Assembly (NCBI GenBank): GCA_000310025.1
Contig: FN648441.1
Span: forward strand, 163,968 to 227,967
Direction: 5' to 3'
DNA length: 64,000 nucleotides
DNA from: Ectocarpus siliculosus
Taxonomy: Eukaryota > Sar > Phaeophyceae > Ectocarpales > Ectocarpaceae
A model generated the notes under the pieces. That model made no database searches, was not told the origin of the DNA, and saw only the letters and a list, made by a program, of their open reading frames with translations. A program made the position numbers and the translations under genes. Position 1 is the stretch's first letter, and the number at the start of each line of letters is the position of its first letter. Below are positions 17,705 through 52,904 of this stretch, one piece after another.

Positions 17705-19365
17705 ATGCGGGGAGAACATGTCGGAACAGTCGGCACGACCCTTCTTCTCGTCGGGGGGTTCGTGGCCAAGGCGGGTGCCGCAGGCTCGTTTGACCCGATG
17801 ATGCACATGATGCGAAACCTGTTCACCACCACCTACACCGATGGAGATGCCTGCCCTAATGAAGATGATGCCTGCGTTGCTTCAGCCAGTTGTCTGGCTT
17901 GCAACGAAGCCTACATGGCCGCTTTTTCGGATTGCGCTGCTTCGTTGACCAGCACCTCCACGTGCGATGACCTTGCCGAAGCCATGTGCTGTGCGGCGGA
18001 AGGCTGCGAGGACAACGAGGAATTTGCCGACATCATGGGTACGTGCACGACAATTGCCTCTCCTCCGTGTTTTCGGCAACGAGAACTCCGTGATAAGAAA
18101 AGATAAATAGTTCAAACTTGCATTGTTCGTACGCAGCAGCATTGGTTTCAAGCCACGTCGCTATTTTTCGGTGATACTTTCTCGGCTCTTCTGTGAAATG
18201 GCTTCAGTGACAAGCAATGCGTGGTCTATACGGTTTCGCGTTCTTCAACAAGATGGGTCGCGACGTACAGGTTGTGACTCGTGCAGTGCACCTATCTCAC
18301 GTTTAGCGCTTCTACCCCGCTTGGTATTTCGTCGGGCAGGCTGCATTAATGGGGACCTTGGTTGCGGAGTCATCGACATTGGTGATTGTGCAGGAGGCGG
18401 CAGCACGGCTATTTCCGGCTCCGACACCACGACGGACTCCACATCCACAACCGAGACAGACTGCCCCACCGAAATCTCGGCGTGTAACGCGGATGACGAG
18501 TGCGTAACATGCACCCAGTCGTATGTTGACGCCGTGGAGGGATGCTTTGCTTCAGCGACTGGTTCCACGTGCGACGATGTTGAAGAATCTGTTTGCTGTG
18601 CGGTGGATGGCTGTGAGGACAACGAAGCGCTCAATGATCTCTTAGGTGCGTTCCTGGTTGGTTGACTTGTGTCTGCAGAAATCTCTGGGATAGAGACGGC
18701 GTATGTCAAATGCGCGACCCGTTACACTTGTAGAGCCTTCGACCTGTTCGCGTGATCGTGACATTGTATTGCGACCGGTTTCCGGCGTAGATCGGAGCGG
18801 GCCAGAAATGGATGCCAGTACCCCTTCGTAGCAGTGCTGGCGTTTTACTGATGTCTCGCTATATGTACAACCGTTGTGCGAACACCATGATGTTGCAACT
18901 GTTTGACGAATGCCGTTTTCTTCGCTCGCCACACTCGCGCTACTTGTCCACCGGCCAGCCTGCATCAATGCGGAATCTACATGCTCCATCGATATTGGGG
19001 ATTGCGAAGCGGACGGCAGCAGGGCCATTTCCGGCTCCGACACCACCACCGAAACCGATGGTACCGTCAGCGATACTACCACCGACACCGATGGCACCGC
19101 CAGCGATACTACCTCCGAAACCGATGGTTCCGCCAGCGATACTATCACCGACACCGATGGTTCCGCCGCTGACGACGGCGACGACACCAGCGACGCCATC
19201 CCTTTCCCCGTTGGAGACGACGAGGAAGATGATGAAGACTCTGATGCAGATGCGGACGCGGCCGACACCGAGTCATCCGCCACTTCCGTTGCGGCAATGG
19301 GAGGTTCCACGGCTGTCTGGCTGATTGCCGCCGCTGCACCCGGCCTGTGGGGCCGGTTCCAGTAA
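17705..19365 (+). CDS. gene A: modular Cys-rich secreted/surface protein, 1 internal module
   Basis: Three exons (17705-18038, 18340-18645, 18959-19365), joined in phase 1 at both introns, give 348 aa. Exon 1 encodes a signal peptide (hydrophobic TTLLLVGGFVAKAGAAG) and a nine-Cys domain with spacing C-x6-C-x5-C-x2-C-x10-C-x9-C-x7-CC-x4-C. Exon 2 encodes a short three-Cys segment, a Ser/Thr/Asp linker and a second nine-Cys domain (CPTEISACNADDECVTC, then CCAVDGCEDN). Exon 3 has the three-Cys segment, Thr/Asp-Gly repeats, a long acidic stalk and a hydrophobic tail (GGSTAVWLIAAAAPGLWGRF). The tail may be a GPI signal or a membrane span. The start codon sits in the same CAAACACCATGCGGGG context as gene B. 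Function unknown; the domain is not one I recognise. Confidence 0.8.
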
Positions 19366-20880
19366 CCCAAGCCTACCATTTTCGCCAACGTGGCGGGATG
19401 TAGTTGTAGACAACTCGAAACATTCGTCCTGCTCCCTTACAGCAGTAGGCAGTTCGAGGATTGTTTGTACAAGTACGTACAAGTCTAGTGCTGTCTACAC
19501 ATCGTCTAGACACGAAACAGCAGGCCATATACTATACGCGACACGTTCAGTCCATGGCCGCTGTTCCTGTGGACGGTTTTGTCCACCACAAGTGTTTTCG
19601 ATTTTGAAGAGAATGCTTGCGTCGTATGCTTTGTTTGTAGTCGTCAAGAAGAACATCAATATTCAGTCCGCCGAGAACGTGTACAATATGTAGTCTAGGT
19701 GTGACGAAATACAGAGAAATTGAGCCTTATGTCTTGACCCGAACCATCGATGTGTCTTATCTCCGGACCCTGCCTACACTGTTGCTGCTACACCAACTAG
19801 ACAGCAGTAGCCGTGCTGCTGCGTTGTTTCTGTTTCGTAAGCGTAGTACTGCTGTGTGTATAGTGTTGCTGCTTCACAGCAAGTGTGTGTACACACACAG
19901 CAAGAAGTTGTGCTGCTTGCTGCGTTCTGACCCGCGTAAGAAAGTTCGAAGAAAAAATTCGTGTGATGCGGTGACGTGGTGTGACATGGTCGCCAGGAGG
20001 TGAGAAATTGCCCGCCAGGAGCAAGTTGTCGTGCAACAAGTTTTTCTTGTTGTTAGTATCAAATCCAAACGTAACTTTGTAGTTACATGCGCACAGAACA
20101 TCTACTACCTCATTGCTTACCGCTCCTCTCTCGAACAAGAATCGCGCACGCAGTATCAGGACTGCGCGTCAACGCAGGAAAGTTCACGGGTGACGCATAG
20201 ACAGGCGAGTGAGTACAGAGGCTGGTTGCGGTATAACCCTGGCATTTTATTATTCCTTAAATCCCCTGCCATGGACTGGTGGGCCGCCAAAACCAGCAAC
20301 CTACAAAAGCATACGAACACTCTCTGTCTACCATGGTTGGCGGTAGTGGCGCTGTTGAGTCTATACATAAGAGATTAGACGATCAGTAGTGAGCACATGG
20401 GTTGTGGCCGTAGCTACCGACGCACCTAGCTCACAAGAAGCCTAGACTTTCACAAAGGCTGGTGCTGTGTGGCTGCTGTACATGTATTGATCGAAACACA
20501 CGGCACACGCCCTCCGATCTCCCATGAATTTTCGTCGTTACCAACAACTTGCACCAACGGAACTTGTCCTCCTCCCTATTGATGGGCCATCGAACGCCTT
20601 TCTTTCTTTCATGATCGAGAGTCTGTGGCCCACCTGGCTGGCCTGACACCTCACACCCTATGTAGAGCACTGGGTCCTGTAGATGATCTCCAGCAATTTT
20701 CCTATACCACAAGCAGCAGCCAGGGGTGACACTGAACCGGATGACCGATGAAAAAAAATGATTCTTCTACTCTGTACGTACACGGCGGTGAAGACCGTGA
20801 TCTCGGACCCCGTGAGGGGGCGACATGGGGGAGCCTATGCTACATACTCTGCTGATACAAGACAGAAACGCTACATGGTA
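19366..20880. other. intergenic DNA with no supported gene
   Basis: No exon chain or domain is seen. Several CAGCAGTAG-type strings occur, which are common through this window, without a clear element boundary. Confidence 0.4.
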
Positions 20881-21062
20881 CAGCAGTGTGAAGTGGTCCC
20901 GGTATATTCTGCAGGTCGAATAGTGCCAGTCGCCCAAGCTCGCCTGGTATGACGCCGATGAAATCGGGTGGCACGACTGGAGGTCGGCATTCTGCAAAAA
21001 AAGCAGTGAGTGGTAGTCCCGGTATACCGCCGTGGTCGGCCCCGAGTAGTGCGAGTCCCGAT
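20881..21062. repeat. two tandem units, ~120-bp spacing
   Basis: AGCAGTG, then TCCCGGTATA, then TAGTGCSAGTC occur in order at about 20882-20935 and again at 21002-21055. The units are diverged and have no coding potential. Confidence 0.5.
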
Positions 21063-21331
21063 ACACCGCTGTAAATCGCTTGTCACTGGATTTGGCAACT
21101 AAAAAACTAAAAGCTATATATTCCCAACACACTCAATCAATAGTGCCTTGGTCCCGCGGTGATATTTGCCTGTCACTACAACAACACCGCCGTATATATA
21201 TGGGGACCACCAGACACTGCTGTACAGGCATCATGTTATATATGTACTCACAGGATGGTCGTCGTGACGTGATACGTTTCTTGTTATTAGTATGGAAAAA
21301 AATAAAAAAAAGATGGCTCGATTTTTGAATT

Positions 21332-21960
21332 TCTACAGCAGTACGGACCAGACGCCGACTTCACATGGAAGTCGTACGAGTGTCGACTTAGTTGTGCTGT
21401 CACAGCATCTTGCACGCACTTCTGCCAGTGCTGGTTCGTTGATTGGAGTCTTGTAGGCCGAGATACAGCAGTGGGATTCTCGGGTTGTGGAGGCAAAAGT
21501 GAACCAGAGCAAAAATTTTCATGCATAGCTCGATTACTGCTGCTGTGTTTTTGCTACAGCAGTATGGACTAGACGCCGAACGACGTCCGCGTGCTACAAG
21601 TACCGCAACGACCTAACGGGATGGGATACTTCCTGCCACGGCGAACCATAGTACAATGCGATGCAAACATCCGTTCGTGTGTCGCGCGGCTGCCACATGT
21701 GTCGACGACAGGTACACGTAGAGCTTTCGCCATGTTGTTGTCGTTACCGCGCAGGAGGACCCCTCGGAGATGTTCCACATGGTGCTACAACGACAGCAGC
21801 TACTGTACATAGATGTCATAGGAGAGTGGAGTTGTGCTGTCACGGCATCTCCCACGCACTCTCCTACCGGTGCTTGTGTCGATTGGAGTCTTGTAGGCCG
21901 AAATACAAGAGTGGGTTGGACTCCCGGGTTGTGGAAGCAAACCTGCCTGCAACAACAGAG
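21332..21960. repeat. duplicated segment beginning TACAGCAGTA
   Basis: Copy 1 (about 21332-21520) and copy 2 (about 21548-21955) both begin with a TACAGCAGTAYGGACYAGACG segment. Both then contain GTTGTGCTGTCAC, CACGCACT and GATTGGAGTCTTGTAGGCCG. Near the end both carry TCGGGTTGTGGARGCAAA-like sequence. Copy 2 carries about 200 extra bases. This is probably a non-autonomous element inserted twice or tandemly duplicated. Confidence 0.6.
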
Positions 21961-23764
21961 AGCGGTGTTCTATTTACTATAATACAGTAGAGTATCCCGC
22001 TCACCTTTTTTTTTTTTCGCGGCATGTGGTCGCATATTTCGTTGCCACTGCCGAAAAAGACCGCTGGATCTTTACGCAGTCCACCTTTTGCATTTATCAT
22101 TTTACACTGAACGACGCAGAACGGGTCGACCTTCATCGTTGTTGTTGTTGCTGTTGTCTCCACATTAAAAACCGTTCCGACGTCTTCCTCGATACTTGTG
22201 TACTACCTGTTGGAAATTGTGGGAATCTCTTCATTCTGAGAGAGAGAGCCATAGGTCGCCATCTGACCTTTTCTTTTTTTGTATCTTTTTTTCTTCTTGT
22301 GAAGTTTTGACGTTGCGCTTGCCATCGTCGCCGCATAAGTGTTTGTGTCTTCAAACCTTCTCAGCCGGCCTTCAAACTTCTTGTTGATAATTCTCCGTGT
22401 GGTAACTTCTCCGCGCATGAGTCATATGCAGCTATGACCTGCGCTTTGACTTTCACGATGGGTATTTTACCTCCCCGTCTTGCGTTGGTGAGTTCCTGCG
22501 ATATACAGAAGGATCGCTCCACGACGCAAACAAACGTCGACGTCTCCGTTTTTTGTTTTGTTCCCTTCGCACTCCATCCTTGCGGCGGTTTTCACACCGA
22601 CTTCGAACGAACGTGGGGTGCAATTTCCTCTCTTCGTGTACCTTCCTCGTCGGCCTTCTCCGTCGTTGGTTGTGTACATAATGTATACCTCGATTTTTTT
22701 GCTTTTCGATTCCGATAGACAAGACTACGGACTGACATGTTCCTTTCACCCCCGACGGGACCGCGCGCTCGTCGAGTGCCGAAATTCTTCATCACTTCCT
22801 TGCCTCTCCCAACACCGTCTCTTCTTCCCGCCCTTACAAATCCTCTCCCCTTCTTCTTCTTCTTTCCTTCCTCCCGGTCACTCACCACCATCCGTCCTGG
22901 ATGTTGGCCCCCAGCCCCATTGGGGGGCGGGGGGCCAATCCTTAACCCTAGTACTTACTTTAGTACTTACTTCAGGTGCCTCGTGTGTGGTTCAGTTATC
23001 GACACTACTTGGAATTTCACGTTGGACGTCCAATGGACGTCCCCTGGGAAACCAATCTTTGCAACCAACCTCAACAACACACACAACACACAGTGACAAC
23101 GTCGCGGCCGTATACAGAAGGCCAAGATGGCGATGATCGCAGCGCATGCCTCAGGCAGACATATCTGGTTGCTTTCACAAAAACTCTGATGGAAACGGTG
23201 CCTGCCGCAGAGCAATGCTGCTTACAGTATATATTGGATTTGGTTCATTCTACCAGAAGTGACGAAAAGCCCCAAATGTAAAAGAGTGATGAGCTACGGC
23301 CCAACGATGCACGCGCGTCTGAATGATGCTCGATAGCGGCATGCCTACCAAAACTCCTAACACAGCATCCAGTTTCTTCTCCATCACGTGAAGTTGGTGG
23401 GGCGATATGTATGCTGGCGTATGATTAGTCTACGTTTGTTTTCGTCCTGAATCGGTTGGTTCGTTGGAGGCACCCAGCTGCTGCCAAATACGACGAGACC
23501 TCCTTCCGGACGGGTCTGCTCCCGGGCACCCAGAAATTTGTACAAGGAACGCTTGCTTATGAATGCCAAATTGCAGGGTTGACGGGATGTGGGAGTCAAT
23601 CATACAAAACAACGTGAAGATGTGGGAGTCAGTCCGCTCACAGCATTTCTGCCGCGTCGGAGCTCCAATCCGTGGTTACACAAAAGTTCCTTCCCCTGAG
23701 GCCACCTACCAACTTCTCCCGCGGTGCGTGCCTTCGATGTTTCACTCGAGAAGAGTGCAGCACT
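21961..23764. other. pyrimidine-rich intergenic DNA with GC hairpin
   Basis: The stretch 22540-22890 is rich in TCC/TTC. A GC-rich inverted repeat at about 22905-22942 (TTGGCCCCCAGCCCCA and its near complement) is followed by a TAGTACTTACTT direct repeat at 22948-22973. Open frames are present but none has a domain or matching exons. Confidence 0.4.
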
Positions 23765-24531: not shown

Positions 24532-27307
24532 ATGCGGGGAGAACATGTCGGAAAAGTCGGCACGACCCTTCTTCTCGTCGGGGGGTTCGTGGCCAAGGCG
24601 GGTGCCGCAGGCTCGTTTGATCCGATGGTTCACATGATGCGAAACTTGTTCACCACCACCTACACCGATGGAGATGCCTGTCCCGCGGAAGATGCAGCCT
24701 GCCTTGCGTCTACCAGTTGCTTGGCTTGCAACGAAGCCTACATCGCTGCTTTTTCAGGTTGCGCTGCTTCGTTGACCAGCACCTCCACGTGCGATGACCT
24801 TGTCGACGCCATGTGCTGTGCCGTGGAAGGCTGCGAGGACAACGAGGAATTTGCCGACATCATGGGTACGTGCACGACGATTTTGACAACAACTGCGTGT
24901 TATTGGTAGATAAACACGCAGCATTGGTTTCAAGCCGTATCGCCATATCGCTATTTTCTCGGGTTTTCTGTGTAATTGTTCCAGTGACGAATGCGTGGTG
25001 TATTAACGGTTTCGTGTTCTTCAGCAATGGGTCCCGACGCACGTACCGTGCTCAATTGATGGACCTTTACGAGGTTACTCGTGCGGTTCACCCCTCTCAC
25101 GTTTGACGTTTCTCCCCTGCTTGGTATTTCGTCGGGCAGGCTGCATAAATGCGGACATTGGTTGCGGATACATCGACCTCGGTGATTGCAGCACGGCTAT
25201 TTCCGGCTCCGACACCACTACGGACTCCACATCCACAACCGAGACAGACTGCCCCACCGAAATCTCGGCGTGTAACGCGGATGACGAGTGCGTAACATGC
25301 ACCCAGTCGTATGTTGACGCCGTGGAGGGATGCTTTGCTTCAGCGACTGGTTCCACGTGCGACGATGTTGAAGAATCTGTTTGCTGTGCGGTGGATGGCT
25401 GTGAGGACAACGAAGCGCTCAATGATCTCTTAGGTGCGTTCCTGGTTGGTTGACTTGTGTCTGCAGAAATCTCTGGGAGTGTTGGAATTTACGGCATTAT
25501 GCCAGGGGCGTGATAGGGTCGAAACCTCGACCTGTTCACGTGATCGTGACATTGTATTGCGACCGGCGGCCGGCATAGACCGAGGTGGGCCAGAAATGGA
25601 TGCTGACCCCCCGTAGCAGTACAGGTGTTGCTCATGTCTCGGTATCTCTACAACTGTTGCGCGAACACCGTGATGTTTTGACTGATTGTATGACGAATGC
25701 CGTTTTGCTCCTTCGCAACACCCGCTTTACGTGCCCACCGGTCAGTTTGCATCAATGCGGAATCTACATGTTCAATCGACATTGGAGATTGCGCAGAGGA
25801 CGGCAGCAGGGGCATTTCAGACTCCGACACCACCACCGACACCGATGATGCCGTCATCGATACTACCACCGACTCTCCGTACACCTCGATGACGACGAGC
25901 GAGACTGACTGCCCCACCGAAATCTCGGCGTGTAACGCGGATGACGAGTGCGTAACATGCACCCAGTCGTATGTTGAGGCCGTGGACGGATGCTTTGCCG
26001 CCGTGACTGGTTCCACTTGCGACGATGTTGAAGAAGCTGTGTGCTGTGCGGTGGATGGCTGCGAGGACAACGAAGCGCTCAGCGATCTCTTAAGTACGTT
26101 CCTGGTTGGTTACCTTATGCCCCGCAGATTTTGTGGGAGTGTACCGAGATTGGCGCCGTATATCAGAGACTTGATAGGATCGAAAACTCAAGCGTCTGCA
26201 CATGATTGCTACATTGTTATGCGGCAGGCGGGCGACCTTATACCAGTCGTAGCTCCCTGTAGCACGGCCGGCGTTGCTCGTGTGCAGCTGTTTCTACAAC
26301 CGTAGCGCGAACACCGTGACGTTGTGACTGTTCGTACGACGAAGCTCATTGTGCCCCCCCTAAAAACCACTTGATTCTCGCGCTACTTGTCCGCCCCGTC
26401 AGCTTGCATCAATGAGGATTCTACATGCCAAGTCGATATTGAAGATTGCGCAGCGGACGGAAGCAGGGATATTTCCGGCTCCGACACCACCACCGACACC
26501 GATCCCGCCATTTTCCCGTCGACACCGACAACCACGACTTCCACAACCGACACCGACACTACCACCCCCGGGGGGACCGAGACCACCTCGATGACGACGA
26601 GCGAGACCGATTGCCCCACAGAGCTTGCGGCTTGCAGCGCAGATTCGGAGTGCATAGCATGCACGGAGTCGTATGTTGCAGCCGTGGAGGGATGCCTTGC
26701 CGCAGTGACTGGTTCCACCTGCGACGGTATCGAAGAAGCTGTGTGCTGTGCGGTGGATGGCTGCGAGGACAATGATGCGCTCAATGATCTCTTAGGTGCG
26801 TTCCTCGTTGGTTCTTGTGTCTGCAGATTTGCTGGGAGTGTGTTGAGATTGACCGCGTAATGGGCGTGGTAGGATGGAAACCTGTGAAGGTGTTTGTGGC
26901 ATTGTAATGCGGCGGGCGACCTATAGTCTATGTGTCAGAAATTGATACCCAGCCGTAGCTACCCGTTGCAGCACGGCCGGCGCTACTGAGGTGTTGTTGT
27001 GTCTGCCGCCGTAGCACTAACACCGTGATGTTGTGACTGTTCGTTCGGCAAAACCTCATTGTGTTCCCTCGCACAACACATGGTTCTCGCGCTGCTTGCC
27101 CACCGGTCAGGTTGCCTCAATGCCGATACATGCCCCATCGACATTGGAGATTGCGACAGTAGCGTAGCCATTTCTGACGAAGAGGGGGAAGCGGACGCAG
27201 GTAACACCGAGTCATCCGCCACCCCTTCCGCTGTGGCAATGGGAGGTTCCACGGCAGTTTGGCTGATCGCCGCCGTTGCACCCATCCTGTGGCGCCAGTT
27301 CCAGTAA
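24532..27307 (+). CDS. gene B: modular Cys-rich secreted/surface protein, 3 internal modules
   Basis: Five exons (24532-24865, 25140-25433, 25746-26093, 26403-26795, 27111-27307), all joined in phase 1, give 521 aa. Exon 1 matches gene A exon 1 (signal peptide plus nine-Cys domain). Exons 2, 3 and 4 each code for the three-Cys start, a linker of different length and composition, and a nine-Cys domain ending CCAVDGCEDN. Exon 5 is a short version of the terminal exon, with a brief acidic stalk and the same hydrophobic tail (GGSTAVWLIAAVAPILWRQF). Introns 2 to 4 share about 120 bases before their acceptors with each other and with gene A intron 2. Secretion and surface anchoring are inferred from the ends; function unknown. 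Confidence 0.8.
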
Positions 27308-30300
27308 TCAAGCCTACCGCGTTCTCCAGCGTGGCGGGACTCTTCGCCAAACACAAAAATACATATTCATGTATCAAGTTTTCTGCAGTCTCTCTACGTG
27401 TGCTGCTGGTAGACGGTTGAACCAAAGCTTTCCAGTAGAACCTTTGAGTGCGTGCGTGTACCACTTGACGCTGTTGGCAGGCGGAAAGTTGTGAAGATAG
27501 AGAACTTGTGCGCGCTGCGTCTATCGGCGGATACTGTACAAGTACTCAGCATCGGCGTGCTGGACCGGGAGACAGCAGTGCACTTGTCGCGGCCTTTTGG
27601 GACGCCGGAAGACAGTTGAGAGTTGTTTACGCCGTCGTCTAGACCGTAATGAACTAGCGCTTCTTCGTGTACGTTTGGTGGCGCCATGTAGTACAAGATT
27701 CGGACTCATATGCTCGTACCTGCGCGCATTTCGTGAAAGCAACAACAGTTGGGCGACTCCTTCCACCAACTTCGGTACAATTCATTGTTTTTTACATTCC
27801 CTGTGGGGCTTAGGTGATGACGTGGGGGGTTGGAGGGCATGGGTAATAAACCATTTTTGCGAGGATGAGTACAAAGTGTAGATCGTGCATGTTGTAAATT
27901 CGCCACTACTTCCTGGTATCGTTGTCTACCCGTACGTAGTCTACAATGACAGGCCTGTTTTCGATTGAAAGAAGCTTAGAAATGCGCGATGCGTACGCAC
28001 ACAAGTGCGTGAAGGGTGATGGAAGGGCCGGACCTACATAACGAACCCTCTGGGGTTCTAAAGTTGCACAAATTAATTGATGTTGTGAAAACAGACTGGC
28101 GAGCGCTGCGGGGCAGTCAAAGGAACGGATGGGAAAGAGTACGTTGGGGCATGTCCCTCGCATCAGCTTTTTTACGGCCGGCAGAAAAGGGTTAATCATA
28201 AGAATTAGCTAAACCCATTTGTGTGGCACACGGTGGGACGGTGACTGTTTTCACAGCACAGGCTGTCGATGAGGAGATCGATGCCAAGTGTTGTGTGCCA
28301 CGGAGAACACGTGGTGTTTCAAAGCTTTTAGCAGTTGCTGAGCTCGATGCAGGGGGTAGTTGGTGTAGAACGTTAACGTCATTAGCGAACCAGACTCGTC
28401 CTGACATAGAGCAGATGTATCCTCAACGCGGTCCGTGCCGAGGCGAGGTGTTCGCATGCATGCGCCGAAGGCGGCTTTGCATGTCTATTCGCTCACGAGC
28501 AGTTTCGCAATGCTTATCAGAGGGACACGTTAGGATGAGACCCCCTTGCGAATTTCATGTTTCGCCACCAACGTCACGTACCGAGTGGCGGTCTGTTTTT
28601 CGGGCGGTATCGATGTTTGCTGGTGCGTATGGGATGTATTACGTGTAGGACGAAAAGACCGTCATCCTCGACGGAAGCGGAGGAAAGGGTACACCGTTTT
28701 TTGCAGTGCCTCCTACGGGATAGTATTTGACATCAGCAGTTGTTAAGGTTTTTCGCAGAACGCGATTTAGTGAGAGAGATCAAGAGATTCGTAGAGCATC
28801 ATTCTATTGAGCATTTGGGTTGGGTTGAACAATGGACGGTGGTTTGGGGGATTGATTCTTGCAGCTTTTCCTCGCAGTTGTGACGAGAGTTGTGTAGATC
28901 GTACCTCGGAACGAGCAGGGGCGCTGCTTGAGGGAACTCGGCAAGGTACTGGATCATGACGTAGATGGTATTGGTTTGGTGGACATGACGCGCGAGGTCC
29001 TTCCTGCCTCTCCCAGGTGTCTCTCTTGTTATTTTGCTCTCTTTAGATATGCAGAAAAAAAGGCCAAGCTATTTTCTCGTTTGACCGCTGACGAAGCCAA
29101 GCACCAAGGTGCACATTTCTCCGGGTGTGGGTGATTGTGCCCAAGTCTTTAAACATCGGCCAAGGGTTTGCCGCAAGGCGCATCTTGCCATGGAGGTTTT
29201 TTTTTTTGTGTTATTCTTTGCTTTCGATCGGGCAAATGTTGTGCGCCATAATTACAGCGTGATTTGCAGTCATACGAGTTTGGAATTCTACGTGCAGCAA
29301 ACAGTTTCTCTCCCAAATGCCCACTTGATGAGTTCATGAGGAGATCTCTGATTCTCCCGGAAACAGGATTAATATAAAGTGTTCAGCTGTTGCGAAGTAG
29401 TACAAAAGTGTGCGCCAAACGGTTCCTCTTGAGATTCTGTATGCACAGGTACGTTTTTTTGTTCGCCAAGTATCACACTCAATTTTCGAGATATTCCAAA
29501 ACGTGAACAAAAACCAAGGGTGCGCGAAAAAAACGTTTCCCGAACCGAGGACCCTGCTCTTAGTTTTGGAGGTTTTCGGGAGTCTTTTCCCTGAAGATAA
29601 ATCACAGGGGCCCGCGGGGGGGACCAGGTTCGTTCGCTTCCGGGTGCCCGCCCTGCGCGCGAGCAAGGATCCAATCTTGTGAGAACCCCCAAGCCATGAT
29701 CGCAACCGGGTACGGAGCGCATCACCGGCACCAACCAGCTCAAAGTGTGCGTGAAATGCCTCCAAAAATAGCAAACGATGTGCCCTCGGCATGCAGCTTG
29801 CGTGCCGTGGGCTCTTAACCTCAAGAAAAGCCAACGGTCAATGACAAAACATACGGGGATGGGGGCGGAGGGTGTCTAACTAAGTGTACAGAGCAGAAGA
29901 TATTCTTCCTTCTCGTTCACCCCTATCTAAAGGGATCACACACACACGCTGTAATCATTTGTTATTCGATTAACTCTTGTGGGACAACAGTGCTACCGGT
30001 GCCGTGTTCTTAGGTAAATTGAACAGAATGAGGGCGTCCCTGGAAACGGTATGTGCCCTGATCCTTCAGTCGGGAGTTACTCCTCCCACCTTCTCTATGG
30101 GTATAGTAACCCGCAAACGACCTTTCCTACAGTCAAATCCCGTCACACTTGCCCACCCTGGGAGGTTCTGACACGCAGATACTTACGCTATATCTCGAAT
30201 CTTGATGTTCAATTTTCGAAGTGCGGTAGGTGCGATCGTTACGCCCACCCATCCCTCCCTCCCGCTCGTGACGACTACTGGTTCGAAGCGGGAGCCTTCC

Positions 30301-31613: not shown

Positions 31614-32254
31614 GCTTTCACCACCACGGGGATCACAACGGGTACCAAGATTAAGCGTACTCTATAACATCGATTAGGCGGGGTCGACGAAGGCGCGGCC
31701 GCAGCGAGGTGGTACACCCAAGGTTCCGTGGGAGGCTCACAGCACAGCAGTTAGTGAGTCCAGCATTATTCCAGCTCGGCGCAAGAATGTAAAGAAAGAA
31801 AGGAAGGTATCCAAAGCTGAATGAAAACAACTGAACTGGCTTGGTGTGGGCGCGGAGGAAAGCGCGTCAGTGTGGCCTCACCCAGATCCACGGCGCTAGG
31901 CTCACCCAGATCCACGGCGCGACGCTGAGGGCGTTGTCGCATCTCCCGTGTTTCGTACAGTGCACGCGCACGCCGAGGCATTGGGCAGGTCTCTTCATCA
32001 TACTTACTTGTTGCAGATTTAAACGGTACGGTGGGTTTAGTTGTTTTCAAAGCTCCAAGACGTGTCGTCTTTCCTTAGTCGGAGCGAATAGGTCCCGTGG
32101 TGATCATCATGAATACCCGTCGGCACCCGTAGGGTGCTACACCACCGATACCAATGGATCGCTACCCACGGTTAACACCACGGGTGCCTGTGGCTACCCA
32201 CGGTGACGACCATGGGCTAGCATTAGGCATCAGTTTGGGTGCCCATGGGTCACC
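31614..32254. other. non-coding stretch between repeat blocks
   Basis: No gene is seen. A 22-base direct duplication built on GGCTCACCCAGATCCACGGC occurs at about 31877-31925. Confidence 0.35.
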
Positions 32255-32456
32255 ATGTGTGTGGCCATGAGTCACCATGGGTACCCACGGGCAATACCCA
32301 TGGGTACCCATGGGCATTGCCTGTGGGAACCCATGGGTACCCATGGGCATTGTCTGTGGGAACCCATGGGTACCCATGGGTACCCACGGGATAATTTCAC
32401 TTGGTATGGGTACCCATGGGCATTGCCTATGGTGCCCGTGGGTACCCACGGGGTAA
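32255..32456. repeat. CCCATGGGTACCCA palindromic repeat block
   Basis: About 200 bases of units such as CCCATGGGTACCCATGGGCA and CCATTGCCTGTGGGAA-like spacers. A GGGTAATTTCACTTGGTATG-type segment appears twice (near 32390 and 32450), showing a higher-order unit of about 60 bases. Confidence 0.8.
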
Positions 32457-33544
32457 TTTCACTTGGATATGGGCGAATGTATCAAACATCTGCACCGAGA
32501 CAAAGAAATAAACGGAAAACCACGACGCATTGAAGAGGGCCGCGGGGCGGGAAAGCTTCGGGTATGGTTTGAAACCCTTTTGTCACCTGAACGGGCACGC
32601 ACGAATGCGTGTTTACTACCTCGGGGAGAGATAAAGTAAGGAACAGAACGCCATTTGGCCTGCGGGTTCGCTTCGGCGACGATATGAAACCCGGTATGTC
32701 GTGACCATCTCGCGTCCACGTGGTTGAAACCCCCTTACGCTTCTTGGGGCGGGGTCGCTTCTGCCACGACCTGAATCCCTTACCCCTTGCTGTATGTGCC
32801 CCATATTCGGAACTATTTGGCTCGGTCCTGAAGAACCACGAAGGAAATACTAACATACGTAATGACGCCACAAAAAACGATGTGGTGCAAAATTATATGA
32901 AGCCAAACACAGCACCATAGAAAATCCACGCTCGACACCTTCACCACGAACTCAATATCGGGCATCGTAAAATATCGTCGTTACGCTGTGTACGACGCAA
33001 CAACAAGGAAAAAAGATTTCGTCGGAACCAAGATATTGACAAGAAGTCGGAACCACGATGTTGACATACGCACGGCACATATCGTCCCGAGAACAGACAA
33101 CACCCCCGCCAGGAAGGAAACCCATACCGGGAAACGTTGGCAATTAACAATGTCAACCGTGCAATGGGACAAAAAAAAACGACAACAACGTCAACCCATT
33201 CTAGTAAACCCACTGTAGTAAGAAACGTCGCCGATCAAAGTGAGATGACGCAGCTAGATAAGAGTAAGCAACCTAAACGGCTCGAATGTACGTAAAGCAG
33301 CCCCATTAGGCAGCGCGAATGGTGTAACCATAACCAAGTGCATCCTTCAGCCCATCACCCCAGGACATCTGTGCGGGTGGAATTCCTCTCTGCTAGGTAG
33401 AGAGCACCAGGGAACTCGGATCGGTAGGAATGTTGGCCCACTCTTGACACACCGTAGGAGGACGAACAAGATGGCAGCGGGAGCTGTGCGGTTCCTGACG
33501 TCTACAACCTGCCGTTCCGGATGTATGTGTTGTACGTGCTAACG
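32457..33544. other. no supported gene
   Basis: Short frames only, with no domains. It ends where the decayed KDZ-type transposase gene begins on the minus strand. Confidence 0.35.
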
Positions 33545-40424: not shown

Positions 40425-41034
40425 CTAGGAACCCGTTGCCCCCACACTAGTAGTGGCGCCAACATATGGCTTCGCTACACTCTCCGTACGCCACCCGGCA
40501 ATTTTCATGATAGCGTCCATCGCCGTTCCGTCAAGCGACTGCGCTACAGAACCTCCGACGCGGAACGAGTGCATAGTGTAGCGGTGCGGCAGTCCCGCCG
40601 CTCGCAAATGCCCTTGTAGGGCAGCCGTCATCTGAACCGCCGTAAGCGGAGCGCAGCCCCGAGTTCCATCCAGCAGAACGATAGGAAACAGATGCCCTTG
40701 GGACAAATCCCAGCCAATACGCTCCGCCGCACTGATGTAGGCCGTAACATTGCTCACCGCACAAATAGACGGGCAAGCGACGTCCGGACGCACGACCACG
40801 GCATCAACAGAGTCCCCGAGGGTCTTGCCAACCTGGAAGTTGAAAATCAGACCCTGCCCCGCGGGCAACCGCAGAACTTGCGATCCCATAGTGAAGGAGA
40901 GATCATGGCCTCGCCGCATGGAGGCGAACGCCAGCGAAAACAAAGCGACGTCCCTGTTCCCGCTCGCGAAATCTACCAACGGCAATCTCCGTAGATCTGT
41001 AGTGTCTTGTGCCCATATCCATTCGGGCAGATCC
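40425..41034 (-). CDS. tyrosine recombinase catalytic domain (Crypton/DIRS-like), 5'-truncated
   Basis: The open frame from about 41034 (after a TGA) to the stop at 40425 encodes about 200 aa without an obvious ATG start. It covers the catalytic half of a tyrosine recombinase: an early Arg in FASMRRGHDLS, a Lys in the hairpin FNFQVGKT, the HxxR box in YTMHSFRVGGSVAQ, Trp in the His/Trp position in IMKIAGWRTES, and the nucleophile Tyr in AKPYVG. The order and spacing fit enzymes that cut and rejoin DNA through a 3'-phosphotyrosine, as in Cryptons and DIRS-like retrotransposons of protists and fungi. All five catalytic residues are present, but the N-terminal DNA-binding half is missing, so this is probably a remnant or an exon of a larger gene. 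No terminal repeats were found around it. Confidence 0.75.
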
Positions 41035-42822
41035 GTTCAACATCCATGCTATACGATCATTACATACATATACAGCCGGCACACGCCCGGATAATTCTCA
41101 ACGAATTGCGACAGGACGCGCTTCAGTCGTAGATAGATCCCCGGAAAATTTGCATGCGTGCGACATATGCACACACACACACATGGATGGAAGCCTCGCG
41201 CTCATGGCGGATTTGGGCGGATTTCGCTTCTGCGGTAATGTGGATCGCGGAATGACTTCATTTCTTCAACTGACATGCTTGCTGACGGAATTGTTGTTGT
41301 GGAAAAAGGCCATATTGATTTTTTTCATATGACACAACGAATCCATCTCTATCATAGAAAAGAGTCAGAGACAGATTAGCAATGAATTCACAGCTAAAAA
41401 AAGGCCCGTCTCGGGCTGGCTGTCTCTCGCAGACTAGCAGAACAGATTGCATACCTTCGCCGGGAAGATTGATCATTCTCGAAGGGGATTGGATGTGGCA
41501 TTTCGTATACACGGCATCCACCCGGTGGCGTCTGCGGTGTCTCCGCGCGACCCGTGTCTCGGTAGACAACAGCAGTATTGGAAGGGGTGGAGATTTTGCG
41601 GCTCGCGCGGTACAGTATGTCTACATGAGGAAGAGGAAGAAAACAAATCGGAAGGATTTCATGAAGAATGAACGGACACAGGGCAGTTCCCGCGTACGAA
41701 AGACAACACACCGAGCACACACACGCGCAAGTCACAACACGCAAAGGGGGGTGTGAGAGCGAGCAAGGGAGAATCACTACATAGTTGTGACCAGATACGA
41801 CTGCGGTGCTACAGGAGCAGCACGGGAGGTGAGACACGGTCCGTCTATGTACTTATGCGAGAGGATATCGTAGTCTATGAGCACAGCAGTATAGATATGT
41901 CCGTGCAGCGGTTGACTTCCGTGTGGGTACTTCGGCTCAATGCAAATAAACGCTGCGTAGAGGGAGGTCCGTTTGGTTGGGCGAGTGCCCGTGTGCTTCG
42001 AGTTCCGACGACAAGTTCAGCAGACGACAGATCACGACATCACACGACACGCAACACAAGAGAACCTCGAAGCTGGAATCGGTATCTACATTGTGGTTCT
42101 CATGCCCTTTGCTGCAGAGTCTGGAGTAGACAGTCACAGTCTACAGCAGTATCATCGTCAAGTCCACCGCCTTCTCGCACAGCCACGGTGAGACCGTAGC
42201 ACGAGAGCTACGGTAGGGCAGCATGCAAGAGCTGTGGCCTTTGTTAAGCTAAACAATGAGGGTTTGACAATCGTGTTTACGCTGTACCGAAGGGCGGCAG
42301 CCAAGGGTTTATCTAGTCTTCAACAGAAGATCCCACGTTTCTGGCAGTACGGTGACAAGGGTGAGAGGCCTGTGTCAAATCCAAGTTGGTTGTATTGCAC
42401 AGCAGTCCTGGGATGGGGTTTGCGGGTCACTTACATATTATAGGTGCTACCACACAACAACAAACGGCTCATCGCATCGTCTCTGCTTGGGTTAAATTAG
42501 ATCTGGTCGCACAAAGTTGTTCCCTTCTATGCACACAGCAGCAGTAGACAGACTGCTTTGATTTTCCATCCGTGCATATCTCCGAACGTTCCTCAGAAAC
42601 TTCCGCGGAAAGTGGGGACCGTTCAAGCAATTAAAGAAAATCCAACCGTCTCACTTTGCATGTAAGTTGGCAGTCTTCATCGGGGTTTTGCTTTGTACAC
42701 CGCCTAATGACATCATGGCCATGGACTTGTGTACATTGGCCTTTTCCATCCCGGTCTGTTTGTTATATAGCGTATTATTTTAGCCATTTTTCGCCGCCCT
42801 CCAGCCCGCTCTCCATTATTAT
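41035..42822. other. gene-poor DNA with dispersed repeats
   Basis: It contains the 41320-41410 repeat and TACAGCAGTAT-type strings (for example near 42140). No coding region is supported. Confidence 0.4.
41320..41410 (-). repeat. dispersed repeat, inverted copy of 10431-10515
   Basis: The reverse complement shares GAATTCATTGCTAATCTRTC, CTCTTTTCTATGATAGAGAT and ATTCGTTGTGT with the 10.4-kb copy, followed by an A-rich end. This indicates a multi-copy short element. Confidence 0.7.
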
Positions 42823-43876: not shown

Positions 43877-43898
43877 GGGGGGGGGGGGGGGGGGGGGG
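43877..43898. repeat. poly(G) tract, 22 bases
   Basis: Uninterrupted G run at the 3' end (poly-C on the sense strand) of the minus-strand LINE fragment. Confidence 0.95.
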
Positions 43899-43903
43899 TA
43901 CTC

Positions 43904-45060
43904 TTATGTTTTGCATGCCTCAACGGTTAGACCATTGACCACGCGTCCTCGAAAGGACGGAGGATTGTTCCCACAGGACCGATCACCGATGGCCAATCGT
44001 TCCTTCCTACTTTGCCAAAGGTGGCTCACAAATGTCTTCCCTAGTCTGTCTATCCTAACGATATCCCTTCCCGCCTTTTCAAACCACTTCCTACTCCCCA
44101 GTACAGCTACCGTCCTCTCCTCTCTATTCCATGCCTCAAACATCTCCCTGTACGTCCCTTGCATTTTTCCCAGCTCAGTCATGTACACTTCCCTCTCCTC
44201 TTCGTACCACGGACATTCCGCGACTACATGAACACGGTCTTCGCATTCGAAGCCGCAATCACATTTGAACTTGTCGTCTTCGTCGTCTACCGTCCTATGT
44301 CTTCGTCGACGTTCTCGAAGGCCTATCTATGTCCCCGGTCCTGAATTTGACCTTAAGCTTTGTTCCTGCATCCATTGGTCCATGTAGGTAATCCTTGAAC
44401 CCTATTCCTTCTTTCAACATTCCGTACACTTCTAGACCCTCCTTGTCCTTGGTTTCTTTCCTTAGATTCTGTTCTTTTCTATCGGCACAAGCAACAGATA
44501 TCTTCTCCTTGAACCCCTGTAGACCCTCCGTTTCGAGCGTTTCATCTTCGTCGATGTCGAACCCCTTCCATACGTCCTCTACAACCTTGGACCCATTCTG
44601 TGGGTTGTCTACCCCTCTTCTTGTTTGCCCACTTCGCCTTCCCATACTATTCTCGGCAACTTCTCCTCTGCCATCCCGCACATGCGATACTGCCATGCAA
44701 GCTTCCTTGCGTCTCTTCCCGACCGTAGGGATTTGATCCCCAATTCTGCCCTGGACGGCTGCATTACTTGTATTGTGCGCTTGGAGCATCCTAGCATGAT
44801 CTGCTGCTTTCATCTGCGCCGCCTCGAGTTCTTTCACTACCTTCTTATTTCCTTCCCATACTTCTGCGGCGTACTCTAGCGGCGGTACGATTACGCTCTT
44901 CAAAACCGTCAATTGGATGCGTGTATCGAGGTGCCGGTTTGCGAGTATTGGGTGCAGCTTCCCCTGCTCGTGCTTTGCCCTTTTCCGCTACCTTGGACAT
45001 GTGTGCATTCCACGAGCAGTCTTTTGCGAATATCTACTCCGAGGTATGTGTACTGGTGGG
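43904..45060 (-). mobile_element. 3' part of a LINE (non-LTR retrotransposon), frame-broken
   Basis: On the minus strand the end of a reverse-transcriptase ORF can be followed. It runs YLGVDI, then (one frame over) DCSWNAHMSKVAEKGK, then TVLKSVIVPPLEYAAEVWEG and KKVVKELEAAQMKAADHARM (thumb region). A coiled, charged segment follows, and after another one-base frame change near 44310 a CCHC knuckle (CDCGFECEDRVHVVAEC). The ORF ends at 43904 beside a C-tract. At least two frameshifts make it dead. It starts abruptly at a G/C-tract at 45057-45076, as in 5' truncation during target-primed reverse transcription. Confidence 0.7.
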
Positions 45061-45200: not shown

Positions 45201-46255
45201 AGGTATTCGGCGAGTCGCATGAAGGGTGAGCTGCATCCTGCTAAGGGTGTTCGGCATCTTGTGCTTACTTGCTTGCATACGGATGACAGCTGCGTATGAC
45301 TTAATTTATTTTCTGGTGCTTTCACTTCCAGAGACAGTTGTAAGCACTGTGTAACTGTCTCGAGGATGCTTGACCATTAGCACAACATGGTGCGATCATC
45401 CCCCTTGCGCGGAGTGAGGGTTCTCCACTCCGCACAACATGATCTACTCGACCACCATTATGGTTACCGCCAAAAAAAACAGAGGTAAAAAAAAACGAAC
45501 GGTAACCTGGTTGCCGAGTTCACGAAGTGAATTGGCTTGTTTTTACAACGTCGTTGCCAAGCGACGAAAACCCAACCCCGATGGCAAACACCCGGGGGGG
45601 GGGATGCGGGTTGTTCGTGTAGCGTCAGCGAGTAGTACAGTATGTATGCTTTTTCTTTCTACCAAGCACCATCAGCACTATGTACACAATTGGTGCAACT
45701 GTAGGGCCGGCATGCACCGGCCCTACAGTATTAAGAGTTGGAAATCCTCACGAGTTGTACTCGCACCCACACAATGAGCAACATATATATGTTTGCACGG
45801 ACAGAGAAAAAGCGTGCCGCCACGTGATGGAAAATGTCCTACAGAGACATCCCAGCAGGCTCTCTCTTGGGGATGTAGGCTTGTGGATGTTGACGATTGT
45901 CCCGTATCGGTTCTCGAAGAGGTGTTGTAGATTGTCGTCGAAATTATGTCCTAATTTGTTGTTGAGTTGGTGCGTGCTCTCTCCGCAGTGTGTCGCGCGA
46001 GCAGAACAAACCCTATGCAGCAATGGCCACTGATGTACATAAGCAGAGCACCCGATTGTGCAATCTTATAGTCACAGGTCAAAGGCAAAACTCAAGTGCT
46101 GCGTATGAGCCTGTACGTGTCCTGTACAGCTGCAGCGCGGCGTACCAACTCACTTCTTGTGCCGCTGGACTCCTAGTACGAGAGGCTTGGCTCTGAGTAC
46201 GCAGGAAGTCCGAAGGAGAAGAAGATGGGTTGGTGGAAATGTAGTTACTTGATCA
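45201..46255. other. no supported gene
   Basis: Short GGTTACCGCC/ACGGTAACC strings at 45465-45515 recall the TTACCG-rich elements. Otherwise unassigned. Confidence 0.35.
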
Positions 46256-47915: not shown

Positions 47916-48132
47916 GGCAAATGAAAACAATTGCTGTCCCAAGTACAACAACAACATCTCCAGTCATCAAATGGATGAGAAACACATCAAGGTGAACCCT
48001 ACACTGCATCCTACATGCAGCTGCCCGTCTGTGCTCGACGGTAGCGACGGAATAAGACACGAAGCCTGACGCTGGGTGGTGACGCATTGGCGGACTGGGA
48101 GGGTCTCCCACGCTTTCGGCAGATTGTGTTGA

Positions 48133-48335: not shown

Positions 48336-48399
48336 CCCACAGAAAGCTTACGATCGCACGCTCACCTTGAGCAACCCGTGTGCAGCCCCCCGCTCGTAA

Positions 48400-48533
48400 G
48401 GAATATGTTCGTAAGAAACTTCAGCAAGAATCACCTAAGAAATTGAGCATAGCGGCCGGCTCTACATAAAATAAGAAAATATCCTTTGAGCCTCGCTCAA
48501 AATAGGTGTTTCTGAGCGGGCCGGCACTGTATG
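48400..48533 (+). mobile_element. short copy of the ACGGGCCCG/TAAGAAA family
   Basis: It carries three TAAGAAA motifs, then GAGCCTCGCTCAAAATA and GAGCGGGCCGGCACTGTA, in the same order as the right end of 47367-47915. The left boundary is uncertain; a GCGGCCGGCTC string at 48452 could pair with the right end. Confidence 0.5.
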
Positions 48534-49303
48534 GAATGATGTCCATCGGATGCCCACCATGGGCAAAACAACGTGGTGTGCCCGCCGCGGGGCCACCCCG
48601 AAACGCCCGTCAACAGCAGACGATGTGTGGAATGTGCCCACCATGGGGACCCCCTGACCCTGGCCCTAGCCTCTCGGGACGTCCAACGATTGCCAGCTCG
48701 TGCTTCACGGTGTCCCTCCCCGCAAGGCACACCTTAACCACATTTTGGTTCTCAAAACAGAGCATACTGACTATCGATTGCTGGGGAACAGTGCAAACAC
48801 GGCCGTCGATTGCTGGATGCATGCACGTCTACATAAATTTCTGCGCGCACTGCGTTTGTTTTCACCGGACAAAAGGGCCGAGATTTGGTATTGATTGCAG
48901 TCAGGCGTTCTTGCCTACACCGTTGACGGGGTACGCTATTCGTTTTTCTCACGATAAATTGGTGGGGATTTAGCCTGCCCGCCATTTTCACTCCATGAAA
49001 CATTCGTTGAGCAAGATCCACGTAGGCATGCGCATGGATACCCATGATGGGCATTGGACTGGCTGAGTGCTCACGACAGGCATCCCATGGGAAGCCTCTC
49101 ATCACAGATGAAGGAACCACTTACTGCGTACGCATAAGGCTTCAACTCCTTCAGCATGATTTTGGAATCATAGTGTAGTGGCAACCTGGTGTGTTCTTGT
49201 CCCAAGACCAGCGTCTCTGACTCTCACGCCTTCCCCGCCCCGTGCCTACAAATAGGTCGTCGTGACCGTCTCAACGCAAAGCCAGGAAAACAGCAGCAAA
49301 GCC
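48534..49303. other. upstream region of gene C
   Basis: No gene is seen. TACAAATAGG about 55 bases before the gene C start codon is a possible weak TATA element. This flank shows no similarity to the flanks shared by genes A and B. Confidence 0.35.
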
Positions 49304-52300
49304 ATGCGGGGAAACGATGTCACTACGGCCCTCTTGGTTGTGGCGGGATGCGTCGCCGAGGCCTGGGCCTCAAGCGAGGTTGTTGATCCGACGGCCCACA
49401 TGATGCGGGGCTTGCTCACCACCGGCGCCACCACCAGCAGCAGCGTCTGCGCGGCGGAAGCAGCGACCTGCATCGCAGACGACGCGTGCACCGAGTGCCA
49501 CAACGCGTACCTGGCTGCTTTTGATGTGTGCGCGGGCTCGTCAACGAGCTCCAGCAGCCCCACGTGCGAAGAGTTCGTCGCGGTCGTGTGCTGCGCGATC
49601 GAACAAGCCTGCAGCGACAACGCCGAACACATGGAAATTTTGGGTGCGTGCGTGCGTGCGTTCACGATTGCTTCTCTCAGAGCAATCAAACGCTGTTTGA
49701 GGACAACGTCGACTTGCGTGGTTGGGGAGATACATGTAACTTGATCCCGAGGCAGTTGCGCTATGCAGCGATTTGTCCTGTCACCTCTCGAAACTATGTC
49801 ATCTCGCCTGCCTGCTCTTTGTCTATAATACTACGTATCGTGTTGTTGGTGTTGCCTTTCTGGCCCCTATTGTATCCCTGGGCGTTTTCAGAACATGTTT
49901 GTGCGTGGCACCGCGTTTTGGGGGTTGTGAAGCTATGACCACGGAAGGCATCCGCGTCAGTTGGACCGGTATCATGGTGAAGTCGGAAGGGGTTTCAATG
50001 TAAAGGCACCAACAATCCATGGCTGACGAAACGTGTTCTACATGATTCCGCGCTCTCCGGCACGCGGCTAGGAGGCAGGACCCACGACGCAAACTTCGCG
50101 TGAATCGTAATATCCTTACTCTGCTGTGGTGCCAACAACGTGATTCGTGCCCCGCGCCTCGTCTTTCTGTGCATGTTTGCTTGTCGATAGACTGCGCATA
50201 TGGGTACATATTTGGCTATGATACGGGGTGCGACCTGGCCGATTGCTCGGAGGACGGCAGCAGGGCCATTTCCGGGTCCGACACCCCCACCGAATCCACA
50301 TCCACCATCGATACTACCACCCCCGGCTTCATGGGCGGCTCCGACACCACCACCGACTCCACATCCACAACCGACACTAGTGCCCACAGAGTCAGTGGCG
50401 GCTCCGACAGCTCCTACGAACACACGTTCACAACCTACACTACCCCCGGGTTCTTTTCCGACTCCGGCACCACCACCTCTACGACGTCGACGTGGTGCCC
50501 CAACGAGTATTTGGCTTGTGTAGGGGATTCGGCGTGCGCAGAATGCTATCAGTCGTTCTGGGACTCCTGGCTGACATGCGATGCTTCGGTGATCAGTGTC
50601 GCCTCCTCTAACGGCTGCGACGTACTCGAGGATATCGCGTGCTGTGCGGTCGACGGCTGCCAGGGCAACGAACTGATGGTGGCGTATTTCGGTGCGTTCC
50701 TTGTTTTATCGCTGTGTCCTGGCATTCTGGGGGGAGGATCAGCCACCTAGGGCAGGGGATTAGATGGGGTCGAAGCTTCAGCGTCTGGACGTGGCCGTGG
50801 CATTGCTTGGCGTCCGGGGGGCGGCCTGTTTTGGCTGTCGAAAAATGAATACTCGGCGTGACTCCCGGCAGCACTGTTGGGACTGCACGTGTTTCGACAT
50901 ACTATACATAATCCAAAATTCTACTGAACACCGTGAATCTGTGTTCATGACGAGTCCCGTCTCCCTCGCCACCGTGTTGTCGCCCGTTCTAATTTCCGCG
51001 GGATCAGACTGCGCGTTCGCAGCAGACTCGGAATGTGCTGTGGAAGTTGGGGCTTGTGCGGAGGACGGCAACAGGGCCATTTCCGGGTCCGACACCTCCA
51101 CCGAATCCACATCCACAACCGACACTAGTGCCCCCGGAGTCAGTGGCGGCTCCGACAGCTCCTACACCGAACACACGTTCACAACCTACACTACCCCCGG
51201 GTTCTTTTCCGACTCCGGCACTACCACCTCTACGACGTCGACGTGGTGCCCCAACGAGTATTTGGCCTGTGTAGAGGATTCGGCATGCGCAGATTGCTAT
51301 CAGTCGTTCTGGGACTCCTGGCTGACATGCGATACTTCGGTGATCAGTGTCGCCTCCTCTAACGGCTGCGACGTACTCGAGGATATCGCGTGCTGTGCGG
51401 TCGACGGCTGCCAGGGCAACGAACTGATGGTGGCGTATTTCGGTGCGTTCCTTGTTTTATCGCTGTGTCCTGGTATTCTGGGGGGAGGGGGGATCAGCCA
51501 CCCAGGGCAAGGGGTTAAATGGGGTCGAAGCTTCAGCGTCTGGACGTGGCCGTGGCATTGCTTGGCGTCCGGGGGGCGGCCTGTTTTGGCTGTCGAAAAA
51601 TGAATACTCGGCGTGACTCCCGGCAGCACTGTTGGGACTGCACGTGTTTCGACATACTATACATAATCCAAAATTCTACTGAACACCGTGAATCTGTGTT
51701 CATGACGAGTCCCGTCTCCCTCGCCACCGTGTTGCCGCGCGCTTTATTTTCCACGGGATCAGACTGCGCGTTCGCAGCAGACTCGGAATGTGCTGTGGAA
51801 GTTGGGGCTTGTGCGGAGGACGGCAGCAGGGCCATTTCCGGGTCCGACACCTCCACCGACTCCATATCCACAACCGACACCACCACCACGGGCAACAGTT
51901 CCGTCGTCTTCCCGACGACAACGACAACCAGCGCATTCTCCTCCGACTCCGTCTCCATGACAAATGACACCGCGATATGCGTCGCTGAGAACGACGCCTG
52001 CACGGCGGATCCGACCTGCCTCGCGTGCGCGGGAGCGATTCTGTCCTCGCAGGAAGTTTGTCAGGGCTCGGACTTCGACTCGGAGACCGCCACGTGCGAC
52101 GAGAAGCAGGAGGCCAACTGCTGCGCGCTTGAAGGAGGAACCGACTGCGAGAACAACGTCCTGCTAGGCGCTCTGTACGGTGGGTGGCGGTCTGTTGGAC
52201 CTTGCTCACGTGTGAGAGTGAGAGACAGACTTACTCCGTAAGCGTTTGGACGGTGGTGACTCTACGCTGGGTGAAACCTGCAGCACACGGGTTTCGTCGG

Positions 52301-52904
52301 TAGTGTATGCTCCTGTTGCCGGGCCGGCGTACACGCAGTTTGTCATGCTGTAGGCTAGGCACTCTGTAGCACCACGGCTGGCTGGCTGTCAAGCGCGTGC
52401 ACCGGTGGAACAGGCGACTGATCCTGGAGAAACACGTCGCGAAAACGATGCCTCTATTGCGTCCCTTCGTTTTTCTTGTCTCGTTCCCCGTTTTGATCAG
52501 ATTGCTCGATGGCAGCCGAGGGTTGCACGGGAGCCCTCACCGACTGCCTCGACGGGTCCCGAAGTGCCTCCACCGGAAGCGAAATTTCTGTCGGCGACGA
52601 CGACGGTAGCGGCGGCGGCGGCGGTGGTTCCACAGGTGGCGGCGACCCATCCCCTGCTCCGGTCGAAGGCAATAACAGCGAGATCGACGACGACGAGGGC
52701 ACAAGCGAGGTAGACCCTGTCCCCGTCGAAGGCGACGACGACCAGGAAGGGAACTCTGCTGGAGACGCGGACGCAGCGGACCCCGATGCGTCCTCCGCTT
52801 CCCCTTCCGCCACGGCGGTGGGAGGCTCCACGGCGGCGACCGGGGCGACTCTTTTGCTGGTCGCTGCTGCCGGTGCACCCGGCTTGTGGCGCCGCTTCCA
52901 GTAA
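49304..52904 (+). CDS. gene C: modular Cys-rich secreted/surface protein, 3 internal modules
   Basis: Five exons (49304-49643, 50191-50691, 51008-51442, 51763-52179, 52501-52904), all phase 1, give 698 aa. Exon 1 encodes a signal peptide (TTALLVVAGCVAEAWAS) and a nine-Cys domain. Exons 2 and 3 are near duplicates with long Ser/Thr-rich linkers (GSDTSTESTSTTDTS type) and a nine-Cys domain with a longer fifth loop (CPNEYLACVGDSACAEC, then CCAVDGCQGN). Exon 4 begins like exon 3 but ends in a different nine-Cys domain (CVAENDACTADPTCLAC, then CCALEGGTDCENN). Exon 5 has the three-Cys start, a poly-Gly/Asp/Glu stalk and a hydrophobic tail (AATGATLLLVAAAGAPGLWR). It shares architecture with genes A and B but is more diverged. 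Role unknown. Confidence 0.8.
50237..51762 (+). repeat. tandem exon-plus-intron duplication inside gene C
   Basis: Exon 2 with its following intron, and exon 3 with its following intron, are tandem copies offset by about 751-755 bases. Intron segments such as GGGGTCGAAGCTTCAGCGTC (50766 and 51521) and GTGTTCATGACGAGTCCCGT (50941 and 51696) are identical. Exon 4 shares its first part with exon 3 and then changes domain, so the duplication boundary lies inside an exon. Confidence 0.85.

Follow-up and report, generated by a model that had tools for sequence, protein, structure and literature searches.

The question raised by this locus is whether its three related genes, called here A, B, and C, belong to a surface or secreted family that diversifies by shuffling interchangeable phase-1 exons, as described for some receptor genes of brown algae. 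The stretch of Ectocarpus siliculosus DNA that was analyzed, referred to as the window, has a length of 64,000 nucleotides (C67:163968-227967), and our genome searches covered 189.5 Mb in 492 contigs.

Gene models and exon layout

With GT-AG splicing, gene A has 3 exons and encodes 348 aa, gene B has 5 exons and encodes 521 aa, and gene C has 5 exons and encodes 698 aa (Table 1). The exons that had been predicted for the three genes were confirmed, with all 10 introns being GT-AG and phase 1, and the predicted lengths of the internal exons agreed to the nucleotide. These lengths are multiples of three because the phases are equal and so do not count as separate evidence. The common tail LW[GR][RQ]FQ was also found as predicted, the proteins ending in LWGRFQ (A), LWRQFQ (B), and LWRRFQ (C).

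A DNA search identified a further gene, D, located 9.4 kb upstream of the window (C67:151128-154575), with 5 exons, 574 aa, and phase 1 in 4/4 introns. Taken together, the four genes contain 14 introns, every one of them in phase 1 and at the homologous place. All four lie on the + strand, span ∼66 kb, and have open frames. When the C-terminal tail of D was used as a query, it matched only A to D (E value of 0.1 or better) and one additional row with an E value of 1.5.

Table 1. Exons of genes A, B, and C and tracts of recent copying (window coordinates)
Feature	Position	Strand	Basis
Gene A exon 1: putative signal peptide and first nine-Cys domain	17705..18038	+	Gene model, hydrophobic N-terminus
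Gene A exon 2: hinge, linker, and nine-Cys domain	18340..18645	+	Gene model; 306 nt
Gene A last exon: hinge, minisatellite linker, acidic stalk, hydrophobic tail	18959..19365	+	Gene model
Gene B exon 1: putative signal peptide and domain	24532..24865	+	Gene model
Gene B exon 2: hinge, linker, and domain	25140..25433	+	Gene model; 294 nt
Gene B exon 3: hinge, linker, and domain	25746..26093	+	Gene model; 348 nt
Gene B exon 4: hinge, linker, and domain	26403..26795	+	Gene model; 393 nt
Gene B last exon: hinge, stalk, hydrophobic tail	27111..27307	+	Gene model
Gene C exon 1: putative signal peptide and domain; groups with A, B, and D exon-1 domains	49304..49643	+	
Gene C exon 2: hinge, 63-bp-repeat linker, and domain	50191..50691	+	Gene model; 501 nt
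Gene C exon 3: exon-2 unit, recently copied in tandem	51008..51442	+	Gene model; 435 nt
Gene C exon 4: hinge, linker, and domain	51763..52179	+	Gene model; 417 nt
Gene C last exon: hinge, Gly/acidic stalk, hydrophobic tail	52501..52904	+	Gene model
Gene C tandem duplication	50336..51880	+	50336-51125 versus 51084-51880, 96% identical
259-bp tract in A, identical to gene B 25220-25478	18432..18690	+	
Partner in B of the 259-bp identical tract of A	25220..25478	+	

Other repeats were observed in and around this region. The window contains tandem arrays of CATGGCCGGT- and CCATGGGTACC-like units with periods of 10 to 40 bp (7243-7484 and 32236-32473) and a (TC)70 microsatellite (13926-14065). An open 1058-aa endonuclease-reverse transcriptase open reading frame (ORF) of the LINE type (PF00078; L020:871-4047, - strand) lies ∼0.6 kb upstream of D, and pieces of its downstream part plus flank occur in the window at 43885-45057 and 45278-45603, with identities of 94% and 88%.

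A single repeated bead

The internal exons had been presented as differing shuffled modules, and this was not borne out: the nine-Cys domain of exon 1 recurs in each of them, giving one copy per first and per internal exon and 14 copies in A to D. After each intron, these genes encode a 3-Cys hinge and then an acidic linker of Ser/Thr/Asp that varies in length, and the linkers include coding minisatellites in both A (33 bp, 3.9 copies, 19038-19167) and C (63 bp, 2.7 copies, 50273-50444). Since each bead of domain, hinge, and linker ends at a fixed phase-1 intron, one exon-intron unit in A to D is one bead. In a tree of 25 domains, in which 4 of the 21 inner branches are well supported and 8 are open, the exon-1 domains of A, B, C, and D group together (support of 85/88) and C2 pairs with C3 and D3 with D4, which suggests a stable position for exon 1 and multiplication of the internal units. 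The layout is real, and it is better seen as one old exon-sized bead that has been repeated and copied among neighbors.

The end of the hinge and the start of the linker carry a motif, DGSRAISGSD, that hardly differs between several units of the four genes (window 19011-19034, 50252-50275, and 51818-51841). At this motif A and C share a 24-bp exact match, the rest of the two genes being far more diverged, and the near-identity may reflect either protein constraint or exchange.

A fixed position for the splice donor

The splice donor begins exactly 31 nt past the last Cys codon, in phase 1, in all 25 domains fitting the Cys pattern, of which the window contains 10, D 4, C3 10, and C327 1 (copies off the pattern, such as C3:4433918, were left out of this number). 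GTRNG fits 24 of these donors, and the exception, exon 2 of D, reads GTGCAT there. The scan did not fix the offset in advance, and a few domains carry a second GTRNG site nearby. In a control with 22 domains (window, L020, L022, and L023), GTRNG was present at +31 in 21 and at any other offset between 0 and 60 in no more than 2, and the placement of the donor is beyond chance. In the alignment, the C3 and C327 copies are 24 to 37% identical to its first row, the reference copy.

The family elsewhere in the genome

Protein searches of the genome located one more copy on C327 and others in two regions of C3, around 4.433-4.440 and 4.474-4.482 Mb. The searches returned at least 19, 17, 14, 2, and 16 matches, which are overlapping sets and lower bounds. 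Weak matches were seen on C11, C18, C20, C25, and C26, and a Cys pattern scan of the C26 locus (L037) gave 0 matches. On C3, a search for AG|NN-TG[CT] plus the 3-Cys hinge yielded 11 plausible hinge starts, a count that drops 3 rows inside domains or chance-like and that applies to phase 1, which the pattern assumes, so other phases are not tested by it. By eye, the hinge and the domain seem to be on separate exons in part of the C3 cluster, and one C3 terminal exon consists of a hinge, poly-Asp, and a hydrophobic tail. The gene on C327 (L024, minus strand) has a putative signal peptide, a domain, and a phase-1 donor, and a hinge exon was not found in the 4 kb downstream.

One domain copy on C3 (G000:C3:4433918-4434073) has an in-frame TAG, which may indicate decay or an intron that splits it. 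A tyrosine-recombinase-like ORF (L024:3068-3748, + strand) that neighbors the family gene of C327 has a match to PF00589 below the cut-off (E value of 5.6e-4), and an ORF resembling it, without a Pfam match, is found in the window at 40425-41036 (- strand). The EsV-1-7 family is expanded in brown algae, and Macaisne 2017 is a title on this subject. For the EsV-1-7 motif family, 150 of 150 scored sequences (from 880 candidates) matched in this genome and 0 of 14 control genomes did, as would fit a brown alga.

Recent duplication and exchange between genes

Units have been duplicated recently in both C and D. The identity between introns 2 and 3 of C is 97% and that between introns 3 and 4 of D is 99%, compared to 37 to 80% for other intron pairs, and exons 3 and 4 of D are 97% identical. 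The near-identical block in D (offset of 679, from ∼L020:6389 to ∼7083) ends at an exonic hinge/linker and not in introns, and all edges of the D duplication (∼L020:6389, 7068, and 7760) are in hinge/linker. Those of the C duplication (50336/51084 and 51125/51880) are in coding linkers.

Genes A and B share an identical 259-bp tract that covers the linker end, the entire domain, and the first 45 bp of intron 2, with flanks that are ∼74 to 88% identical. The odds of such a run are ∼1e-16 at a background identity of 85%, 2e-10 at 90%, and 1e-4 at 95%. The A2/B2 domain shows zero synonymous change, whereas that of exon 1 has a dS of 0.31. Selection on the protein does not account for identical synonymous and intronic positions, and copying between the genes is therefore the natural reading. 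A matches B over A 17363-19086 and then over A 19249-19398 (B 27188-27339), which suggests that the last exon of A combines the start of a unit of the B exon 3 type with the common tail, joined in the linker; at ∼83% identity, we are less sure of this putative junction.

As had been predicted, exon units are added or lost in frame, which is seen in the unit duplications of C and D and in the A/B exchange. That exchange would run mainly through introns was not supported, since six of the seven edges resolved are in coding hinge/linker and one (A 18690) is intronic. The preference of the edges for linkers is suggestive only, because just three independent copy-number events were resolved.

Misassembly can yield tandem units of high identity, and the pattern could in principle come from assembly errors in the repeats, from copies without function, or from exons called wrongly. 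However, the differences between copies are scattered, the frames of A to D are open, distant loci share the donor offset, and dS exceeds dN, and we regard such an artifact as extremely unlikely.

Constraint rather than diversification

We compared 14 exon pairs, which are not independent of each other, and dN/dS was <1 in all of them, ranging from 0.26 to 0.85 (A1/B1, 0.29; A2/B2, 0.36; C2/C3, 0.31; B2/B3, 0.26; B3/B4, 0.30; D3/D4, 0.85), with values of 0.47 to 0.72 for A or B versus D. By the Fisher test, the synonymous excess was significant in five of eight pairs, with p values of 0.006 to 2e-5 for A1/B1, C2/C3, B2/B3, and B3/B4 and of 0.047 for A2/D2, and was not significant for A2/B2 (p = 0.22), A1/D1 (p = 0.13), and D3/D4 (p = 0.73). 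As judged from these sequence comparisons, the pattern is one of constraint, modest in places (e.g., A or B versus D), and not of diversification. With A2 and B2 homogenized as well, the original prediction of a diversifying family finds no support here.

According to Teng 2024 (PMC11378527), brown-algal ROCO (LRR-ROC-COR) genes have 72-bp phase-2 LRR exons attached to ROC-COR GTPases, and diversifying selection is reported for the shuffling exons of ROCO and NB-ARC-TPR genes. On that description, the receptor genes alluded to in the prediction are a different system. A to D resemble them in having one protein repeat per exon, a single intron phase, and tandem unit duplication and in occurring in brown algae, but the phase is 1 instead of the phase 2 of ROCO, the exons of 294 to 501 nt encode a Cys-rich domain that follows a putative signal peptide, dN/dS is <1, and the edges are mostly in linkers. 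Pfam gave no row for LRR, TPR, ROC, or NB-ARC in A to D at an E value of ≤10. Zambounis 2012 and Teng 2023 are reportedly further studies on the shuffling exons of brown-algal ROCO and NB-ARC-TPR genes.

Pathogen-recognition receptors that diversify by exon shuffling, as proposed for ROCO and NB-ARC-TPR, would fit the in-frame exon units, the recent duplication of units, and the exchange between paralogues, and they have a precedent in brown algae (PMC11378527). We nevertheless consider this identity unlikely in view of the dN/dS values and the synonymous excess, the homogenization of the A2 and B2 domains to identity, the few loci in the census, and the result that no signaling domain was found by Pfam in the full A to D proteins (E value of ≤10).

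Clonal exon arrays in one intron phase, with unequal crossing-over proposed, are also described in PMC6564038 for the Tetrahymena LRR genes with 90-bp exons. The arrays of A to D are alike in this respect, whereas the Tetrahymena system comprises thousands of genes with LRR and phase 2, and the genes here are few, in phase 1, and encode a Cys-rich helical domain.

A role as gamete-surface adhesion or recognition proteins would be consistent with a probably anchored, Ser/Thr-rich, repeated ectodomain, and concerted evolution is named for the abalone lysin/VERL system in PMC4700764. However, the same text names positive selection for such proteins, and no sign of it was seen between the units, making a gamete function improbable as well.

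Protein character and relation to known domains

The surface or secreted layout of the original prediction is supported by hydrophobic segments at both ends of the A to D proteins, which would correspond to a signal peptide and an anchor. Their computed pI lies at the program's floor of 4.05, with 5 to 12 K+R against 75 to 114 D+E and 78 to 181 S+T. The hydrophobic stretch of the tail is short and ends in [GR][RQ]FQ, a combination that seems unusual for a glycosylphosphatidylinositol (GPI) signal. Several near-identical Cys-rich domains per chain could likewise be found in a precursor that is processed into a number of small, secreted peptides rich in Cys, but such a precursor is very unlikely given the hydrophobic C-terminal tail and the distribution of dibasic pairs, which number 0 in A and B and lie in the stalk/tail of C (695) and D (530 and 571), with none between domains.

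The AlphaFold2 model of the domain is all-helical, with four helices and a pLDDT of 89.8. The Cys domain had not been recognized as part of any known family, and this stands: Pfam gave no match for 22 domain copies at an E value of ≤1, and no PDB-sequence, viral, or prokaryotic relatives were found. Among the matches listed, which were open-licence titles and starts of abstracts, none was a prior description of a nine-Cys bead family.

GFR-alpha/GAS1 domain proteins (PF02351) are multidomain, Cys-rich, helical surface co-receptors. Two of the 10 Foldseek matches listed, 8os6_C and 7rhq_G, are structures that we take to be of the GFR-alpha/GAS1 type, and the start of the Cys spacing, C-x6-C-x5-C, is presumably alike in GFR-alpha/GAS1. 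PF02351 gave no row for the 22 domain copies (E value of ≤1) or the full A to D proteins (E value of ≤10), and the search of this genome with its HMM found none on C67 or C3 and one sub-threshold match on C2 (E value of 1.07). We consider it quite doubtful that A to D are unrecognized brown-algal anchored co-receptors made of GFR-alpha/GAS1-like helical beads, whose bead number and sequence would be reshuffled in populations through recombination inside coding linkers and would provide polymorphism for cell or gamete recognition.

In elicitin-like and CFEM proteins, the Cys-rich helical domains are small and are accompanied by a GPI anchor and a stalk rich in Ser/Thr, and the Cys patterns are different. 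Elicitin (PF00964) and CFEM (PF05730) gave no row for the 22 domain copies (E value of ≤1) or the four full proteins (E value of ≤10), and Notch LNR (PF00066), considered for the end of the domain together with the hinge, gave none for the four full spliced proteins at an E value of ≤10, a range in which HMMER filters drop most matches above ∼0.1.

A model for the family

Starting from the observed anatomy, fixed intron place, recent copying, and dN/dS of <1, we favor the explanation that these are probably secreted, membrane-anchored bead-on-a-string proteins for multivalent adhesion or ligand binding, with a bead number that varies by recombination. Points that weigh against it are the short tail with its unusual ending, the single intronic edge, the C327 gene, for which the 4 kb downstream gave no hinge exon, and the modest constraint between A or B and D, with three of the eight tested pairs lacking a significant synonymous excess. 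Each protein would consist of a signal peptide and two to four beads, then a stalk of acidic character and, as an anchor, the hydrophobic C-terminus. Each bead would be an all-helical, disulfide-rich nine-Cys domain with the 3-Cys hinge behind it and a linker of Ser/Thr/Asp that is flexible and acidic. The bead number may shift, and units may be copied between neighboring genes, when repeated units recombine unequally or undergo gene conversion. The edges would fall mostly in the repetitive coding linker, so the frame would be kept whatever the splice phase. Such proteins would likely serve, at the surface of the cell or its wall, for multivalent adhesion or the binding of ligands, and the number of beads would determine their avidity; an immune or gamete role is possible.

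What the family offers is an uncharacterized Cys-rich domain with an exon boundary that is fixed even among copies just 24 to 37% identical, together with exon-unit duplication and module exchange caught nearly in the act.
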